Part shown: one piece after another, positions 2,925 through 38,364 of the stretch
How positions within the stretch are numbered: the first letter of the stretch is position 1
Layout: each line of letters begins with the position of its first letter
NCBI GenBank assembly: GCA_002711995.1
Contig: PASN01000016.1
Span: 62,001 to 126,000, forward strand
Reading direction: 5' to 3'
Source of the DNA: Halobacteriovoraceae bacterium
GTDB lineage: Bacteria; Bdellovibrionota; Bacteriovoracia; Bacteriovoracales; Bacteriovoracaceae
DNA: 64,000 bases
The notes under the pieces: model-generated
Database searches by the model: none
What the model was told of the DNA's origin: nothing
The model's input: only the letters and a program-made list of their open reading frames with translations
Position numbers and translations under genes: made by a program

Positions 2925-3518
2925 ATGAAATTGCTTATTGGATTTTTTTTAACACTTAATTCTTTTGCAGCTTTTCTTCCAAAAAGCTTTGACGCAAAGT
3001 TTGTAGACGTAAGAGGAAAAAAAGAAATTCCAGTAAACATTAAGTACAAATATCCTAAACAAATCTTCTATGAAGTGAAGGGAGACACCCCCCTTCTTTA
3101 TGTGTGCAATCAAAAAAAGACCTGGAAATATAGCCCTCCATTCATTGAAGGCGAGAAGGGGGAGTTGGCAGTTGGAGATTCTGGCCAGTTCTGTTATTCC
3201 AGAATTTTTGACTCTCTCTCTAAAGGACTTAGTGACAACAAGTTATATAAAACGTCCAAAAATGGTACAAAAGCAGTTTTGAGTTTTACTAAGAAGGCCG
3301 TGGATCAGCTGGGTCTCGAAAAAATTGAAATCAGTTTTTCTGAGGATCTTAAAGAAGAAACTTCTCTCTCTGATGCGAAAAGCTTGAAACTTTATCTTGA
3401 AAACAAGGCCGAGCCTGTGCTCCTAAAGCTTGTTTCTATCGATGTTAATCCAAAGCTTGATAGCAAGATATTTAAGTTTGAAGCCCCAAAGAACACAAAA
3501 ACCATTCAAATGAAGTAG
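2925..3518 (+). CDS. lolA: LolA-like outer-membrane lipoprotein carrier protein
   Basis: 197 residues with a cleavable signal peptide (about 1-16), then an all-beta LolA-type fold pattern: residues 20-60 alternate strands ending in a VKGDTPLLYVCNQKKTWKY segment typical of LolA/LolB-like proteins. LolA shuttles lipoproteins across the periplasm from LolCDE to the outer membrane. The ATG is preceded by an AGAGG ribosome site. It follows smc by 14 bp and converges with the FHA gene. Family assignment is from overall pattern, so moderate certainty. Confidence 0.7.
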   Translation: MKLLIGFFLTLNSFAAFLPKSFDAKFVDVRGKKEIPVNIKYKYPKQIFYEVKGDTPLLYVCNQKKTWKYSPPFIEGEKGELAVGDSGQFCYSRIFDSLSKGLSDNKLYKTSKNGTKAVLSFTKKAVDQLGLEKIEISFSEDLKEETSLSDAKSLKLYLENKAEPVLLKLVSIDVNPKLDSKIFKFEAPKNTKTIQMK

Positions 3519-10484: not shown

Positions 10485-11620
10485 ATAACCTTCTTCTTAA
10501 ACTCTAGCTCCATTGGCTTTAGCGAGTAGCTGCCATCATCTTGTAGGACTATAAGCTCTCTGTTGTTTTTTCTAATTCTACTAAGAAGAACTTGAAAACG
10601 ATTTTCTAAACTAGAGTATTCGATTGAGTCTCCATAAAGATGAATTATAATTTCCTTCTTAGTCTTGGCTCCATCTATTAAAAAACGAACGAGCTTCTCT
10701 CCAAGCTTGCCCAGCTTAAGTTCTTTGCACTTGCCGTTAAAGTCGTTGCTCCACCATGGAAGGACATGCTCCTTGGGAGGAGTGACGCTAGTTGCTCCAT
10801 CCTTGAGCTGTTCGAGCATTTTTATATTGGCCTTTATCTCAGGCAACCTGCTTGTTTTTATAATCGCCAATAAGTTGCTGGCCTCTTGAAGGTGTTTCAT
10901 TTCAAAAAGAAGTCTGCACAGGTGACATGCGGCGCTGAAATACTGATAAGTCTCTTTGTGTCCGGCCAGTAGTTCAAAAGCGGAGCGAGCGTAGGAGAGC
11001 GCTGCCTCTCTGGCGCCAATATTTTCATATTCAATTGAAAGATTCATAGAAACAAGGCCTTCGATATCATTGGCCCTTATTAATTTCGCTTTCTCAATTA
11101 TCATCTGAAGCTCGGGAATTGCTCTCTTCTCTGGATGAAGCATACCATCTGCAGCAACATAATTTTGTAAAGCGAGAAGGCCTTTTTTCTCAAGGCCTAT
11201 CTTATTGTAATAATCATAAGATTTAAGGTAAGCGTCTCTGGATTTATAATATTCCTCAATTCTTGAGTAGGAGTTGCCACAGATAAAGAATATTTCACCA
11301 AGCCAATCTGGCGTCTTTGTTCCAAGCTGGACAAGTTCTTCCAGTCGACTAGATCGTATGGTGAACTTTCTAATATCCATTCTGGCCAAAGAAATATTAT
11401 AGAGGGTCTTGTGAACAGGGCTGATATCCTCAAAGCTCTTCAATTTAGAAGTGAATTTTTCCAAAAGAGGAATGTCCGATTGAAAGTACGCTGATAGAAC
11501 TTTTGCATAAAGAAGAGCAAGCTTTTCATTTTCATCTTTTGCTCGCAACTCAAGATCCAAGATGAAATTCATCAAGGCGTTCCTGTCACATGCTAACAAG
11601 TCTTTAAAAAGCTTATTCAT
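10481..11620 (-). CDS. TPR protein with C-terminal winged-helix DNA-binding domain
   Basis: The first ~270 residues are alpha-helical repeats of TPR type. The C-terminal ~85 residues (KLGEKLVRFLIDGAKTKKE onward, then SSLENRFQVLLSRIRKN and a beta wing LIVLQDDGSYSL) match the winged helix found in OmpR/SARP-type activators. The order is inverted relative to SARP proteins. A GAGAG ribosome site precedes the ATG. It overlaps the secreted protease gene by 4 bp, so it probably controls export-related genes in response to a bound partner. That role is inference. Confidence 0.7.
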   Translation of the reverse strand: MNKLFKDLLACDRNALMNFILDLELRAKDENEKLALLYAKVLSAYFQSDIPLLEKFTSKLKSFEDISPVHKTLYNISLARMDIRKFTIRSSRLEELVQLGTKTPDWLGEIFFICGNSYSRIEEYYKSRDAYLKSYDYYNKIGLEKKGLLALQNYVAADGMLHPEKRAIPELQMIIEKAKLIRANDIEGLVSMNLSIEYENIGAREAALSYARSAFELLAGHKETYQYFSAACHLCRLLFEMKHLQEASNLLAIIKTSRLPEIKANIKMLEQLKDGATSVTPPKEHVLPWWSNDFNGKCKELKLGKLGEKLVRFLIDGAKTKKEIIIHLYGDSIEYSSLENRFQVLLSRIRKNNRELIVLQDDGSYSLKPMELEFKKKVI

Positions 11621-33114: not shown

Positions 33115-33585
33115 TTAATCTTTCATTTGTTTTCGATAGTATCCTTTTAGGGCTCCAATTTGTCTATCATTGAGTCCTTCAACGTAAGTTTTTAAGATGA
33201 AAAACCGGTAAAGAATTTCAGCAGATATTTTTCTTGCCTTGGGTGTATTGATATATAAGAGTAATAGCGTCAGTCCAAATTCGGTAATATCTACTTTTCT
33301 GTACTTTCTCATTCTATTTTTTGGACCAGATAAGTGTTTGTTTTCAATAAGATTTTTACACAACTCAAATTTGAGTTCTGTTCCTAATTCTTTATTACAT
33401 TTATCAATAGCTCTAAGAACATTGTGATGTTTCATATCAAAATGCTCCGCGATTTTAAGTGAATCTGTAACAGGGCCAAAAGGTGTGTCTCGAACCCAGA
33501 CATCTCCCATAACATGTTCATTAACTAAGTCTTTTAATCTAGGTGGTCTTGTTTCAAATGGTTTTTCTATTCTAAAATTATTCAT
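33115..33585 (-). CDS. Rha-family phage regulatory protein
   Basis: Central block VTDSLKIAEHFDMKHHNVLRAI is diagnostic of the Rha (pRha/TIGR02681) family, found in temperate phages and their relics. 156 residues, with a basic C-terminus. It suggests a phage or satellite remnant at the left edge of the accessory island. No other phage gene is recognisable nearby. Confidence 0.8.
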   Translation of the reverse strand: MNNFRIEKPFETRPPRLKDLVNEHVMGDVWVRDTPFGPVTDSLKIAEHFDMKHHNVLRAIDKCNKELGTELKFELCKNLIENKHLSGPKNRMRKYRKVDITEFGLTLLLLYINTPKARKISAEILYRFFILKTYVEGLNDRQIGALKGYYRKQMKD

Positions 33586-33776: not shown

Positions 33777-33836
33777 AAAACCTCTCAAATATAGAAATTT
33801 GTGTTCATACACTAAAGAGGTTTTTTGGTGGTCCAT
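33777..33836. other. Candidate left attachment-like site: hairpin plus tRNA-3'-end-like TGGTGGTCCAT
   Basis: ACCTCT (33780-33785) and AGAGGT (33816-33821) can pair and are followed by a T-run, then TGGTGGTCCAT. The real tRNA at the right end has the same layout: a hairpin ending AAGAGGCTTTTT, then TGGTGGGACAT. I read it as a possible degenerate duplication of the tRNA 3' region. Evidence is visual only. Confidence 0.35.
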
Positions 33837-33896
33837 TCAGTTGCTTACGTGAATTTTACTGTATCACTTGTAAGTTGTGAATTTTATTGAAGTTAT

Positions 33897-34019
33897 TTGT
33901 AAGGAAGGTTGTTTTTCTCAGTGATATTTGTCCATGATTTTAAGTTTGATTAAATGAGTTTTCAATAAGCATGAGGATTGGAATAATTTGGAGGTGGGCC
34001 AGCTTTGGTTATGGTTATG
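33897..34019 (+). repeat. Island leader repeat, copy 1
   Basis: Shares with copies at 35021 and 37171 the blocks CTCAGTGATATTTGTC, AAATGAGTTTTCAA, GGAATAAT and the terminal GGTTATGGTTATG, where the last ATG is a start codon. Here that ATG (34017) leads only into MFLIGTSLN and stops. The lipoprotein gene starts 78 bp later. Confidence 0.8.
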
Positions 34020-34096
34020 TTTTTGATTGGGACTTCTTTAAATTAAGAGTCTGACAGTTCAAAATAAAATGACAGTATTGATAGGTATAAATTATC

Positions 34097-34270
34097 ATGA
34101 ACAATTTTAAAAAATTAGAATTCATATTGTTTTTAATATTTCTTAGCTCATGTACTGGGAAAACTCCTCCTAAAAATATTATAAATTTAACTAACTCAAA
34201 GGGTGACGACTATAGCAAATATGGAGATTTTTTTAATAAATTCTCTCGTTTTGCAGCGTTGAAGAAATAG
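34097..34270 (+). CDS. Lipoprotein N-terminus, first part of frameshifted metalloprotein
   Basis: Starts with a signal sequence and lipobox FLSSC (Cys about residue 19). The frame ends in TAG at 34268. The adjacent frame, open from 34240, carries the natural continuation (34240-35001), shifted back by one base, most simply by a missing base near the GTTTTG at about 34248-34252. Probably one lipoprotein gene in the intact form. Too short for a standalone function. Confidence 0.5.
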   Translation: MNNFKKLEFILFLIFLSSCTGKTPPKNIINLTNSKGDDYSKYGDFFNKFSRFAALKK

Positions 34271-35001
34271 ACGGGTCTCAAAAGCAACTTACTGATGAAG
34301 AAAACAAGCAAATACTTAAAGCTAGTAAAGAATTAGAAGCGAAGATTATTAAAATATCAGAATTAATTGAGAACAAATTAAATATATCCTCTAGTAAACT
34401 TGAGATTATTTTACTGAAAGGATGCGGAAAAACTGATGCTTTCGCACTTTCTGGAGAAATGAATTATGTTTTTTTCGATCTCATTACCTTACTAAAACAA
34501 GTGCGCCTAAACTCTATCCCTGATAGCTTTGTTGCTCATGAACTTATTCATGGTTGTCATTTGATGTTCTCCTCTGAATTTGATCCGGTGAAATACAAGA
34601 GTAAAGAAGATAAACTTATAAAGTATATGCTGGCTGAAGGATTTGCCACTTTTGCTTCACAAGTTTTAACAGGAGAATCAGAGTCCTTGGTATTCTGGGG
34701 AGATATTCTTAGTCAGGCTGAATATAAAAACTGGCTTCTCATTTCAAAAGAAAATAAAAGGGTGTTTTCCAAGAGAATTAATGATTATTTGTTTGAAGAT
34801 GAATCCGATAAAAAACTTATTCAAGACCTTTTTTATGTACTTGAAATGAATAATCTCTCTAAAAAGAGGTCTGGTTATTTTTATGGATACGAAATAATGA
34901 AAGAGTTCTTTAAAGAAAATAAGTTATCATTTAATTTCACATTCTCAGACCTTAGAGAACATGCTTTTAAATATTTTGGACTCAAAGACCTAAAGAGATA
35001 G
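34240..35001 (+). pseudogene. HExxH lipoprotein metallopeptidase, main part (frameshifted)
   Basis: Frame open from 34240 with no start until ATG 34459. It encodes SVEEIDGSQKQLTDEENK and helices, then FVAHELIHGCHLMF (HExxH zinc motif) and LAEGFATFASQVL, where the Glu could be the third ligand, a gluzincin-like pattern. Joined to the lipoprotein start at 34097, the intact protein would be about 300 residues and surface-anchored. It parallels the HExxH proteins at 28184 and 30784. Confidence 0.6.
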
Positions 35002-35020
35002 TCTTTAATATATTTATGTT

Positions 35021-35145
35021 TTTTGTTACGAAGATTATTTTCCTCAGTCATATTCACCTGTTTAATAACAGTTGGTGAAATGAGTTTTCAACGAGTTGTG
35101 AATTTGGAATAATGTAGTGAGTAAACAGTTTAGGTTGTGGTTATG
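35021..35145 (+). repeat. Island leader repeat, copy 2
   Basis: Diverged but collinear copy with CCTCAGTCATATT, GAAATGAGTTTTCAA, TTTGGAATAAT, GTGAGT and the terminal GGTTGTGGTTATG. The last ATG (35143) is the start codon of the cysteine-rich protein, so the repeat acts as promoter and 5' leader of that gene. Confidence 0.75.
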
Positions 35146-35484
35146 AAATTTATTTGGGCTATTTTATTCGTTTTGCTCATTGGAGCGACATGTTATTTCT
35201 ATTTTGGTGATGTTGATTCTTGCATGGATTCTGGAGGGTGCTGGGATAGTACTTCTGAGACTTGTAGAAAGAATGAAATCCATGCTCAACTATTATGCCA
35301 TAGAGATAGAATGGATAGTTGTAGTACAGTAAAACAATGTGATCAAGGCTATACTTGTGTTAGCGTTGCCTCCTTGAAGAATCCCATATGCATAAAAAAT
35401 AATGAAGTGTGCACTTATATTTGTAACGAATCTAGATGTAATATTCTTGAAAGTTACCCTGTTCAGATTACCTGTAACAAATAA
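35143..35484 (+). CDS. Small secreted cysteine-rich protein
   Basis: Hydrophobic N-terminus (FIWAILFVLLIGATCYFYF) serving as signal or anchor, then about 90 residues with more than ten cysteines (CMDSGGCWDSTSETC, CDQGYTCVSVAS, CTYICNESRC), pointing to a disulfide-rich extracellular fold. No known family. The start at ATG 35143 coincides with the end of the leader repeat. A GTG 6 bases earlier is possible. Unusual for its composition. Confidence 0.65.
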   Translation: MKFIWAILFVLLIGATCYFYFGDVDSCMDSGGCWDSTSETCRKNEIHAQLLCHRDRMDSCSTVKQCDQGYTCVSVASLKNPICIKNNEVCTYICNESRCNILESYPVQITCNK

Positions 35485-35511
35485 AAGTATAGATTTAGAA
35501 ATAAAAAAAAA

Positions 35512-35535
35512 CTTCTAATTAAAGAAGGCTTTTTT
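35512..35535 (+). terminator. Terminator-like hairpin after cysteine-rich gene
   Basis: CTTCT, a short AT loop, AGAAG, then GC and a T7 run. It lies 27 bp after the stop. The stem is short, so moderate. Confidence 0.45.
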
Positions 35536-35572
35536 TGTAACCAAGTGGGCGAAAGTTCGCTTGATGTAAAGC

Positions 35573-35583
35573 TGGTGGTCCAT
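35573..35583. other. tRNA-3'-end-like site TGGTGGTCCAT
   Basis: Same motif as at 33826, 37103 (TGGAGGTCCAT) and, with two changes, the tRNA 3' end at 38288. It lies downstream of a terminator. It may be a recombination or attachment site of the island modules. Confidence 0.35.
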
Positions 35584-35690
35584 CCCAGTCACTATCACAA
35601 ACATTTTTCCTCACCACCGAAGTCTTCGAAATTGTTAAATTTAAGACCCCAAAATCTTACGATGACGTAAGTTTCCTCACTGATTTATAC

Positions 35691-35960
35691 ATGAAAAAAC
35701 GGTATTCACTGCGACGAATTTCCATAGAGTTAGGATGCTCAAAAACAACGGTGAGGAAAAATTTAAAAAAGGCTGGGATTGAGATTCTGGAATCAAAACA
35801 AGAAAAGAATGTGCTTTTAAAAGGGAAGGTCGAGAGGTTAAGGGCGAGCGGTGCCAGTTATCAACGAATTGCTTACTTGTTTAAGCTCTTGAAAGTAAAA
35901 ACAATATCAGGCCATGGAGGGTGGCATGCTAAAACGATTAGAGCCTTGCTTCTTTCATAA
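35691..35960 (+). CDS. HTH protein resembling a recombinase C-terminal region, possibly truncated
   Basis: 89 residues from the ATG, with HTH YSLRRISIELGCSKTTVRK and GHGGWHAKTIRALL, resembling the DNA-binding tail of serine site-specific recombinases. No ribosome site precedes the ATG. The frame is open upstream to 35565 and reads plausibly as protein (FKTPKSYDDVSFLTDLY), ending near the TGGTGGTCCAT site. This suggests a gene truncated at that site, leaving the C-terminal HTH part without the catalytic domain. Confidence 0.55.
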   Translation: MKKRYSLRRISIELGCSKTTVRKNLKKAGIEILESKQEKNVLLKGKVERLRASGASYQRIAYLFKLLKVKTISGHGGWHAKTIRALLLS

Positions 35961-36006
35961 ATTTCCGATAAAGATAAAAGTATCATTTCTAACTAAAGGA
36001 GGGTCT

Positions 36007-36066
36007 ATGGCTATTTTTAATATTATTCAAGTTTTAGGCGCTCTTGAACCCACTTCTCATCTCTAA
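36007..36066 (+). CDS. Putative 19-residue leader peptide
   Basis: ATG preceded by a strong AAAGGAGGG ribosome site; encodes MAIFNIIQVLGALEPTSHL. Its last codons and stop lie in a hairpin (AGGCGCT, AGCGCCT) followed by TTTATTT, 28 bp before the GNAT gene. The arrangement resembles a leader peptide with an attenuator, or a tiny protein with its own terminator. Confidence 0.45.
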   Translation: MAIFNIIQVLGALEPTSHL

Positions 36067-36078
36067 AAGCGCCTTTAT
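36036..36078 (+). terminator. Attenuator-like hairpin before the GNAT gene
   Basis: AGGCGCT (36036-36042) pairs with AGCGCCT (36068-36074), followed by TTATT. Overlaps the leader-peptide end. Seven base pairs with a long loop, so modest stability. Confidence 0.4.
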
Positions 36079-36101
36079 TTAAACTAATAAAAGGCAATTA
36101 A

Positions 36102-37025
36102 ATGAACATTTTAAAAAAGGATTTGCTCTCGTATGCAAAAGCGGAGCTTAGTTCATTCAGTTTAAATCTGGATGAAAAAAAGGCGTTAAGTTTTCTCCAA
36201 AAAGATATTTTGGAAGAGTTCAAAGAGCTTAATGATGAGGAGGTTAAAGCTGCTAGGCATCGGCATTTTAATATCAATGGGACTTCTGTCGAATCCTATG
36301 CCGAGAAGGAGCTTGATCTCGGTCTGGGGCGAAGAGTAATCTATGGAATTCGTCACTTGTCGGGAGAAGCGAACAGCCCCTTTGTAAGCATCAGGCCCAA
36401 CTTTTCTGTTGGCTCCAAAGAAGAGGCCTTAAACATTTATCAAAAAATCAAAGATGAATTAGATGTGTTTGATCCTCTTTCTTTGTCATTTTGGAGCGCA
36501 AAAAAAGTGAATGTTGATTTTTACGGTAGCGTTTACATGGTGGCGCTGGCTGAAAAAATCAAAAACAAGGCACCATGGATCGGTGAAGAGAAAATCGAAC
36601 TGGAGGAAGTTGAGAATACGTCTTACTTTGATTGGTACGAAAGGGAGTATCTAGAGTTTAATAAGGCCAAACCTGCATTAGCAAAATGGGTCAGGCACAA
36701 TAGCCTCCAGACAATGGAAGCGTCTCGAAAGGAAGGTCTTTTGCAGTATGTAAAAATCGAAGGACAAATAGCAGGTCTTGTTGCGGCTGAAAAAGGCTCC
36801 CTTTTGGGTCATTCTGGAACCTATTTCAATGAAGTTTTTCTGCGAAAAAAATGGAAGGGGAAAGGTCTTGCAAAATCCGTTCAAAGAAAGTTTATTGCGG
36901 AACAATGTTTAGGCGATGAATTTGTATGGGGAACGATTTATTTCGATAATCTTCCTTCCTATCGGACGGCCTTTTCCAATTTAAGAAGACCTGTTCGTTA
37001 TGAATGCTTCGTTCACTTGAAATAA
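36102..37025 (+). CDS. GNAT-family acetyltransferase
   Basis: 307 residues. The C-terminal half is a GNAT fold: YVKIEGQIAGLVAAEKGSLL, then NEVFLRKKWKGKGLAKSVQ (acetyl-CoA loop, Q/RxxGxG/A type), then WGTIYFDNLPSYRTAFSNLR. The N-terminal ~150 residues are not recognised. Acceptor unknown. It sits behind the leader peptide and hairpin and is followed by a strong terminator, forming a self-contained island module. Confidence 0.8.
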   Translation: MNILKKDLLSYAKAELSSFSLNLDEKKALSFLQKDILEEFKELNDEEVKAARHRHFNINGTSVESYAEKELDLGLGRRVIYGIRHLSGEANSPFVSIRPNFSVGSKEEALNIYQKIKDELDVFDPLSLSFWSAKKVNVDFYGSVYMVALAEKIKNKAPWIGEEKIELEEVENTSYFDWYEREYLEFNKAKPALAKWVRHNSLQTMEASRKEGLLQYVKIEGQIAGLVAAEKGSLLGHSGTYFNEVFLRKKWKGKGLAKSVQRKFIAEQCLGDEFVWGTIYFDNLPSYRTAFSNLRRPVRYECFVHLK

Positions 37026-37030
37026 ACATA

Positions 37031-37063
37031 AAAAAAAAAAGCCTCCGGAAGGGAGGCTTTTTT
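37031..37063 (+). terminator. Strong bidirectional-type terminator
   Basis: A-run, GCCTCC, loop GGAAG, GGAGGC, then T6. Starts directly after the GNAT stop. Confidence 0.85.
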
Positions 37064-37102
37064 ACTATCCATAACCTGCGGTCACGGATTCAACAAAAAT
37101 GC

Positions 37103-37113
37103 TGGAGGTCCAT
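37103..37113. other. tRNA-3'-end-like site TGGAGGTCCAT
   Basis: Variant of the island motif, followed by CACGTCGCTTACGCGAA. A TGCTTACGTGAA follows the 33826 copy, so the similarity extends beyond the core. Lies after the GNAT terminator and before leader copy 3. Confidence 0.35.
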
Positions 37114-37170
37114 CACGTCGCTTACGCGAACTTAACTTCCTAAGTTCTAAGTTATCAAAATGATTCTGCT

Positions 37171-37296
37171 TTTTTGTGATGAAGGTTATTTTTCTCAGTG
37201 ATATTTGTCTGTATATTATGTGTTGTTGAAATGAGCTTTCACTTACTTAATTAGCTGTGATAATTTAGTGAGGAAACAACTTAGGTTATGGTAATG
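37171..37296 (+). repeat. Island leader repeat, copy 3
   Basis: Carries CTCAGTGATATTTGTC (identical to copy 1), GAAATGAGCTTTCA, GATAATTTAGTGAGG and the terminal AGGTTATGGTAATG. The final two ATGs (37288, 37294) are candidate starts for the methyltransferase. Confidence 0.8.
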
Positions 37297-38016
37297 AAAA
37301 AATATTATGAATTACATGAAGAGTTTTGGCAGGGCCTTATAGAAAAAGGGCACGTTTCTTGGGACAAGGAATCTGAAAAAGATCTATTGTTGAGAGAGAG
37401 AAACTCTATCCTTTTAAAGTATTTAAATGGTCGTAAGTTTTATAATGCATTAGATTTGGGTTGTGGTTCTGGCAGTCAGAGCTTTTATCTGTCATCACTA
37501 GGAATTAATTGTACAGGTATTGATATCTCTCAAACAGCAATTAATGAAGGTAAGAGACTTGCAAATAAACTTGATATGCACATCGAGTTTGTTTGTGGAG
37601 ATGCCTGTGACTTCAACCTTGATAAGAAATTTGATCTTATTACTGATAGTTGTTTATTACATTGCTTAGTATTGGAAAAAGATAGGTCTAAGTTCTTTGA
37701 TCGAATTAAGGCACATCTTACTAAGGATGGAAAAACCTTTATTTATACAATGATAACTGATGAGGGAGTTAACCCCTTTGATGAGTTAGATTATTTTCAT
37801 TTCGACAAAGATGGTATTCTTTGGAGTGAAGGCCCTGATCGATTTGATGTAGATTGGACAATTATTAATAACAAGAAGTATTTTCCTCATAGAAGAGTAT
37901 ATTCACTCGAAAAACAGAAGGAAGAAATCATAACCAATGGGTTTAAGATTCTTTCTGATGAAGTCTTAATTAGTGATGACTGTAGAAATAAAACCTATGT
38001 TGCTTGGATAGAATAA
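37288..38016 (+). CDS. SAM-dependent methyltransferase (class I)
   Basis: 242 residues. Motif I NALDLGCGSGSQSFYL, motif II CTGIDISQTAI, GDACDFNLDKKFDLI and DSCLLHCLVLEKD. The N-terminal YYELHEEFWQGLIEKGHVSWD resembles TehB/thiopurine-type methyltransferases of toxic-compound detoxification. It starts at the end of leader repeat copy 3 and is followed by a weak hairpin with a T6 run (about 38020-38046). Confidence 0.85.
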   Translation: MVMKKYYELHEEFWQGLIEKGHVSWDKESEKDLLLRERNSILLKYLNGRKFYNALDLGCGSGSQSFYLSSLGINCTGIDISQTAINEGKRLANKLDMHIEFVCGDACDFNLDKKFDLITDSCLLHCLVLEKDRSKFFDRIKAHLTKDGKTFIYTMITDEGVNPFDELDYFHFDKDGILWSEGPDRFDVDWTIINNKKYFPHRRVYSLEKQKEEIITNGFKILSDEVLISDDCRNKTYVAWIE

Positions 38017-38054
38017 AAAAAACTGATCCGAAGACTAGGCTTTTTTCATAACTT

Positions 38055-38104
38055 AGTGGTCCAATGTTCGCCCAAAAAATATGTGGTGGAGCATACAAGA
38101 CTTG
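38055..38104. other. Two tRNA-3'-end-like sites near the tRNA
   Basis: AGTGGTCCA (38055-38063) and TGGTGGAGCATACAAGACTTG-like sequence (38084-38104). The latter matches the real tRNA end (TGGTGG..CAT.C..GACTTG) at most positions, suggesting a degenerate duplicate of the tRNA 3' half left by integration. Confidence 0.4.
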
Positions 38105-38236
38105 GCCACTATCGTTCGGCTCGTGCCTGACTTGCGTAGCCTCCCATCGCAAGCTGTTCGCTCGCATCCAGCTCGCTTCGATAGCTTTAGCTATCCGCTT
38201 GCTCTCCTTAAAGTCTTTTTCATAAACCCAGAATGT

Positions 38237-38284
38237 AAAAAGCCCCTTAAATAATCGCTTACGCTCATATCTAAGAGGCTTTTT
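38237..38284 (-). terminator. Terminator of the CAU tRNA gene
   Basis: AAAAAGCCCCTTA pairs with TAAGAGGCTTTTT (one mismatch) around a 22-nt loop. On the minus strand it gives a T-run just past the tRNA 3' end. Confidence 0.7.
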
Positions 38285-38287
38285 AAA

Positions 38288-38364
38288 TGGTGGGACATGC
38301 TGGACTTGAACCAGCGACCACCCGGTTATGAGCCGGGGGCTCTAACCAACTGAGCTAATGTCCC
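38288..38364 (-). tRNA. tRNA with CAU anticodon (elongator Met or Ile2)
   Basis: 77 nt including encoded CCA. Acceptor GGGACAT pairs with ATGTCCC; D-arm TAGCTCAGTTGGTTAGAGC; anticodon stem CCCGG/CCGGG with loop CTCATAA (anticodon at 38328-38330); T-arm GCTGGTTCAAGTCCAGC. The G1-C72 pair and lack of the GGG/CCC anticodon-stem pattern exclude an initiator. The T-arm resembles E. coli tRNA-Ile2, so a lysidine-modified Ile tRNA is possible. Its 3' end faces the accessory island. Confidence 0.9.

Follow-up and report, generated by a model that had tools for sequence, protein, structure and literature searches.

We will describe a row of small gene units next to the tRNA-Met gene of a Halobacteriovoraceae bacterium, a Bacteriovorax-type predator with a genome of 3.70 Mb in 23 contigs. 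They lie in a stretch of 64,000 nucleotides of contig PASN01000016.1, which we call the window; the genome itself was examined through searches and targeted stretches. In the original prediction these units looked like interchangeable cassettes next to a CAU tRNA, in each of which a gene is preceded by a leader and followed by a terminator and a boundary motif. This is what we find: 15 genomes contain units of the same kind, which carry different genes and have one anchor, and the adjacent tRNA is a tRNA-Met on the minus strand (Table 1). With a probability of about 0.6 we consider that they make up a gene-cassette array of Bacteriovoracaceae/Halobacteriovoraceae, site-specific and anchored at the tRNA-Met 3' end, which is served by a recombinase acting in trans.

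The three similar leaders noticed at the outset do belong to a single repeat family. A repeat search of the window gives 130-nt copies at 33893, 35019 and 37170; in an alignment the first and the last have 64% and 75% identity with the middle one. All three contain AATGAGTTTTCA-like and GGTTATGGTTATG-like blocks, and CTCAGTGATATTTGTC is found exactly at 33917 and 37194, with a diverged version in the middle leader. They are part of a longer conserved block of about 190 nt which begins at the core TGGTGGTCCAT: this is the left end of a unit. A fourth, diverged copy of the block is found at 35573–35762. The core is exact at 33826 and 35573, it has one mismatch at 37103 and two mismatches at 38054 and 38084; sites with up to two mismatches number 21 in the window, when 10.4 ± 3.7 are expected. 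Leaders had also been said to end at the start codons of unrelated genes. This is the case for the second (ATG at 35143, a cysteine-rich protein) and the third (ATG at 37294, a methyltransferase), but the gene which follows the first leader starts about 75 nt further on, at 34097.

In the left end the core TGGTGGTCCAT is followed by a short region whose last letters are CGAACT, and then by a TTCCTCA site at about +35, another one at about +88, an inverted TGAGGAA at about +167 and GGTTATGGTTATG. The predicted –10 variants of leaders A–C are TGGAATAAT/TGTGATAAT. Of the 11 left ends fused to their gene at the leader ATG, 8 have an extended –10 (TGnnATAAT); it is also present in 3 of the 11 others with a forward gene or no clear gene, and in none of the six with an inverted gene. 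The difference between fused and inverted units has a Fisher p = 0.009, over 28 left ends whose orientation classes were assigned by hand and whose copies are not independent. Units with inverted genes retain the second TTCCTCA and the TGAGGAA, with one mismatch in one unit; taken together, the TTCCTCA-type sites are kept in most of these units. Since they keep the block and lose the –10, the constant function of the left end is probably not transcription. The leader appears to be a promoter in forward-gene units, but not only that: the simplest reading of the block is a set of predicted arm-type binding sites for a recombinase, with a promoter added in forward units.

The boundary motif is present at the unit ends as first described, but it is no arbitrary tag. 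The tRNA has CCACCA at its 3' end, of which TGGTGG is the reverse complement, and the core as a whole corresponds in the same way to CCACCA together with the acceptor stem: it reads TGGTGGGACAT in the genome of the window, TGGTGGGCCAT in G011 and TGGTGGAGCAT in G004. Longer copies, of about 21 bp, are found near the tRNA in several genomes. In L198, L211, L050 and L082 repeats of 21–28 bp identical to the tRNA end of the host bound geneless units of about 150–216 bp. The geneless unit of the window is similar, with 204 bp from the repeat at 38084 to the tRNA; this 21-bp copy has exactly the sequence of the G004 tRNA-Met end and differs from that of its own genome, which suggests a foreign origin. 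In L045 (G011), at 3190–3280, a second, broken tRNA-Met fragment lies between the intact tRNA-Met and dapF. In L080 (12363–12543) and L086 (11416–11594; both in array orientation), which belong to two genera, the right end and the 3' part of the tRNA have 92% DNA identity, against a much more divergent dapF; it looks as though the copy in the element had replaced the tRNA end itself.

The right end of a unit consists of a hairpin with an A-run and a T-run and an arm such as TAACTTAGTGGGCAATAGTTCGCCCAAAAAGTAAC, in which an AGTTC box precedes the core by about 19 nt, as is apparent in a table of junctions; in L045 and L048 it is joined directly to the tRNA. That gene units end with hairpins is correct, both by sequence and by an A-run/T-run test. 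This test, chosen after the sequences had been seen, finds a bidirectional terminator at 21 of 29 junctions against 3% of random control pieces from the same loci; a first, stricter test gave 12 of 29 against 10%.

The leader model gives strong scores in its own genome only for the three copies of the window. Among the relatives G011, which belongs to another genus, has six copies and G004 has one, and further copies are found in several genomes besides these. With the 190-nt model full copies come from the window, L045, L046, L080–L084 and L086; those from L085 and L087–L089 are partial. When the final model was run over the phylum it gave 37 matches in 15 of 369 genomes, every one in the family of the window. 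By comparison with dapF positions, 31 of these matches are found at 20 kb or less from dapF/tRNA-Met on the same contig; for the other six (four in G044, one each in G049 and G032) dapF was not found beside them, and none of the 37 is anchored at another known site. The contig of G049 which bears the match terminates in tRNA-Met-like repeats: at 11500–11755 of L089 the 3' portion of tRNA-Met is present three times in tandem with a spacing of 119 bp, at the contig end, and the sequence that follows is altered.

The position of tRNA-Met beside dapF is conserved within the family, while the array content varies between species and the genes carried are unrelated. As the original prediction would have it, leader copies in other genomes stand ahead of unrelated genes, and the order of the units is not conserved between genomes. 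A tree of 22 left ends from 9 genomes needs at least 16 changes of genome label, with few branches well supported. In this tree, most of whose branches are weak, each left end of the window is nearest to copies of other genera rather than to its neighbours, so that they are not local duplications. Simple tandem duplication was rejected on this basis, since it predicts that copies of the same genome are the closest.

The cargo is varied: DUF2268 and S41-type peptidases, GNATs, methyltransferases, PDZ and MerR proteins, a nucleotide-sugar-epimerase-like protein, small secreted proteins, toxin-antitoxin (TA) pairs and phage-type Rha/ORF6N regulators, some of them named by eye. We also considered a cargo devoted only to defence and rejected it: the PADLOC matches are limited to mads proteins and are generic ones, of the methyltransferase and MerR types. 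Exchange between genera is apparent from the identities. The epimerase-like protein has 74% amino acid identity between G011 and G045, an unknown protein of 279 amino acids 58% between G011 and G060, and a TA segment 85% DNA identity between G061 and G067 (genera g3 and g30). In the genome pairs which share cargo dapF has about 38–49% identity, and 62% for the window and G045. The TA cassettes of G004 and G061 have 77% identity over 852 nt; their homology begins 3 nt before the core and the genes upstream are different. Left ends which are 88% alike precede different genes in different genera, a GNAT in L083 and a methyltransferase in L086.

A recurring companion of the arrays is the pRha gene. 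Its protein has 75–92% amino acid identity with same-locus copies in other genera, for which dapF is at about 40%, and is the best conserved between genera of the whole locus; its carriers are named Bacteriovoracaceae, Halobacteriovoraceae and Halobacteriovorax. Genes of the pRha and ORF6N antirepressor type recur in inverted orientation on the 3' side of units, with several intact and decayed copies (33115–33585 in the window; L080, L083 and L087). Other homologues of pRha, with 62–78% amino acid identity, are found elsewhere in other members of the family (L117–L131).

The features of the window are collected in Table 1. The gene of payload 1 is split by a frameshift near 34260: it is either a pseudogene or an assembly error. 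For payload 2 there is no family match in Pfam, PHROG or PADLOC, and for payload 3 a Pfam search gave no family. The helix-turn-helix (HTH) protein which overlaps block D has homologues with about 25–48% identity at the tRNA-Met locus in G107, G134, G020 and G112, and beside pRha in G012 and G048. We take its C-terminal half to resemble the DNA-binding domains of serine recombinases. As a catalytic recombinase this gene was discarded: nothing but HTH domains is matched, and weakly.

Table 1. Features of the cassette array in the window (HMM, hidden Markov model; ORF, open reading frame; RBS, ribosome-binding site; SAM, S-adenosylmethionine)
Feature	Position	Strand	Evidence
pRha, Rha-type phage regulator	33115..33585	– (opposite to cassette direction)	PF09669 E 6e-16; Rha-like PHROG
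Terminator hairpin ending the upstream unit	33780..33825		Sequence; bidirectional A-run/T-run hairpin test
Left-end block A, core TGGTGGTCCAT and leader	33826..34015	+	HMM E 1.3e-36; sequence model E 1.3e-29
Payload 1, lipoprotein / DUF2268 Zn-protease	34097..35001	+	ORF 34097–34270, open frame 34258–35001; PF10026 E 2e-9
Left-end block B, truncated, without core and about 48 nt	35001..35141	+	HMM positions 49–189
Payload 2, small secreted/membrane Cys-rich protein fused to leader ATG	35143..35484	+	ORF
Right-end block: terminator hairpin, arm TAACCAAGTGGGCGAA, box AGTTCGC	35500..35572		Junction table
Left-end block D, strongly diverged, core exact	35573..35762	+	HMM E 5.6e-8; model E 4.7e-9
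HTH DNA-binding protein overlapping block D	35637..35960	+	HTH_38/HTH_23 weak, below cut-off
Payload 3, 307-aa GNAT-like protein (motif only)	36102..37025	+	ORF
Bidirectional terminator	37031..37063		A-run/T-run hairpin test
Left-end block C: core TGGAGGTCCAT and leader with predicted –35/–10, RBS, start codon region	37103..37292	+	HMM E 4e-48; model E 1e-37
Payload 4, SAM methyltransferase fused to leader ATG	37294..38016	+	PF13649 (Methyltransf_25) E 2e-17
Right-end block: terminator and arm/box AACTTAGTGGTCCAATGTTCGCCCAAAAAATATG	38018..38083		Junction table
21-bp tRNA 3'-end copy	38084..38104	+	Comparison of tRNA ends
Geneless structured unit, terminator at its end	38105..38287		Similar 148–216-bp units in L082, L198, L211, L116, L050
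tRNA-Met(CAU), anchor (proposed attB)	38288..38364	–	ARAGORN; adjoins dapF across the family

The array is built from units of about 0.65–2.3 kb. A unit starts with the core TGGTGGtCCAT and a left arm of about 190 nt with three TTCCTCA-type sites. One gene or a TA pair follows, occasionally more, and may point either way; some units also have an inverted Rha/ORF6N regulator. The unit is closed by a bidirectional terminator and by a short right arm which contains an AGTTC box, after which the next core begins. This anatomy, the anchor, the identity of the core with the tRNA end and the exchange between genera are observed, and on them we base a model of how the cassettes move. Strands would be exchanged inside the 6–7 bp shared with the CCA end of the tRNA (TGGTGG) by a recombinase supplied in trans, most likely a tyrosine integrase borne by a phage or by an integrative and conjugative element. 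Exchange at this place would let cassettes insert beside the tRNA or at the core of another cassette and leave the tRNA intact; they might also be excised as circles. In forward-gene units the left arm would supply an extended –10 promoter, a ribosome-binding site and an ATG, so that a captured gene could be expressed at once, and the terminator would insulate it.

The supply of a recombinase from outside, or its transient arrival, is inferred from the searches made for it. G011 is the most complete of the array genomes, and it has no more than two PF00589 matches, both of Xer size (336 and 355 amino acids). The left end has no match in IMG/VR, INPHARED or PLSDB, that is, in the phages, plasmids and viral contigs as searched; nor has pRha any match in phages or viral contigs, plasmids not having been searched for it.

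Several observations weigh against this model. No tyrosine recombinase (PF00589) is found in or near the tRNA-Met locus of 18 genomes, serine recombinases not having been searched as families, and no arms like the left end are found beside the resident integrases examined in G000, G004, G011 and G045. Neither an excised circle nor a pair of empty and filled strains has been seen. The three-copy repeat in the arm is not significant by composition, since 8% of consensus shuffles give some 7-mer three times. The cores of the elements (GGTCCAT) match the host tRNA solely in TGGTGG and CAT. Finally, some homologous payloads (the epimerase-like protein and one TA) match without their left ends.

Other explanations have to be weighed on the same evidence. 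The units might be minimal phage satellites or derive from them, with a Rha/ORF6N regulator, cargo and att sites, and use the integrase and packaging of a helper. The inverted antirepressor-type genes, which have the highest identity between genera of the locus, fit well with this origin, as do the small size and a tRNA as attB, both typical of satellites. However many units have no Rha/ORF6N, the arrays lack a tyrosine integrase and any recognisable primase or packaging gene, and the database searches of the left end and pRha described above were negative. We find this origin unlikely. Equally improbable is that we are dealing with integrase-less remnants of ordinary integrative elements which have accumulated at a tRNA, with no active cassette system. 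Accretion of this kind is already known at tRNA and tmRNA ends (PMC5704250, PMC3146451), and at these loci many copies of pRha are degraded and there are truncated left ends. On the other hand the left-end anatomy is kept in 15 genomes, with mostly single-gene units, an in-frame ATG and terminators, and there is no integrase at the site in the 18 genomes checked, unlike Dehalococcoides. Genes might also be replaced from incoming DNA through homologous recombination at the conserved leaders and terminators. This would explain the near-identical leaders with different genes in L083 and L086 and a payload family found with and without leader, but it is very improbable: copies in the same genome are only about 64–80% alike, poor substrates for RecA, and the tRNA-end core and the anchor are left without explanation.

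If the cassette array is accepted, a wider interpretation may be put forward, which we offer tentatively and with more doubt than the array itself. It would be a gene-capture system apart from integrons, in which single genes enter a standard expression frame, made of a bidirectional terminator and an attachment arm that serves at the same time as promoter, ribosome-binding site and ATG, and are gathered at a tRNA 3' end by an externally supplied recombinase, as a cassette pool shared by predators. A lineage-wide array with units of cassette size and a tRNA tail as core, and with neither integron integrase nor attC, would mean that the stockpiling of cassettes has arisen more than once. Gene acquisition by predatory bacteria could be tested at this concrete locus, and the left-end block may be used as bait for new accessory genes and toxin-antitoxins.

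We have found no published description of these arrays in the open-licence literature, a scope which does not cover most subscription journals. The closest comparison is with integrons, the textbook system of gene cassettes in Bacteria. As in integron arrays and in clusters of attC sites lacking integron-integrases (CALINs), we find a tandem array of exchangeable gene cassettes: small, mostly one-gene units with a shared recombination site, varied functions which include toxin-antitoxins, exchange between genera and no integrase nearby. In our arrays, however, the site is a tRNA 3' end, gene orientation is mixed, and there is a conserved arm of about 190 nt with a predicted promoter and a start codon in forward units. 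The attC site (RYYYAAC...GTTRRRY) has boxes AAC...GTT, whereas here the polarity is GTTC...GAAC: the junctions read AGTTC...TGGTGGTCCA...GAACT when the junction table is inspected by eye, no attC covariance model having been run. An integron was rejected on this polarity and on the absence of IntI (TIGR02249) above the cut-off in all 11 array genomes, which agrees with the original prediction for the features tested. The array is like an integron cassette array in anatomy and behaviour; by membership it is not one.

Cis-mobilizable elements (CIMEs), as defined in PMC5704250, have features in common with our units: cores at both unit ends and arrays free of PF00589, neither serine recombinases nor relaxases having been searched for as families. 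CIMEs and the accretions at tRNA and ssrA genes, such as the relatives of ICESt1 and the islands at ssrA in Dehalococcoides, also share integrase-less tandem units, copies of the RNA-gene 3' end between them and one attB. These cases are multi-gene islands derived from integrase-bearing ones, which are often still present; about half of the Dehalococcoides islands retain an integration module (PMC3146451). Phage satellites (phage-inducible chromosomal minimalist islands, PICMI, and the P4-like ones) are also small, with a tRNA-type attB and phage-regulator genes. Our arrays differ from them in having no tyrosine integrase, no recognisable replication genes and no match in phages or viral contigs. 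Tycheposons are tRNA-anchored cargo elements of marine bacteria and are alike in this respect, but they are of much greater size and include genes for a recombinase and for replication. What is new here is the scale of the units, mostly of a single gene, and their shared expression backbone, with no module-bearing relative in the genomes checked.

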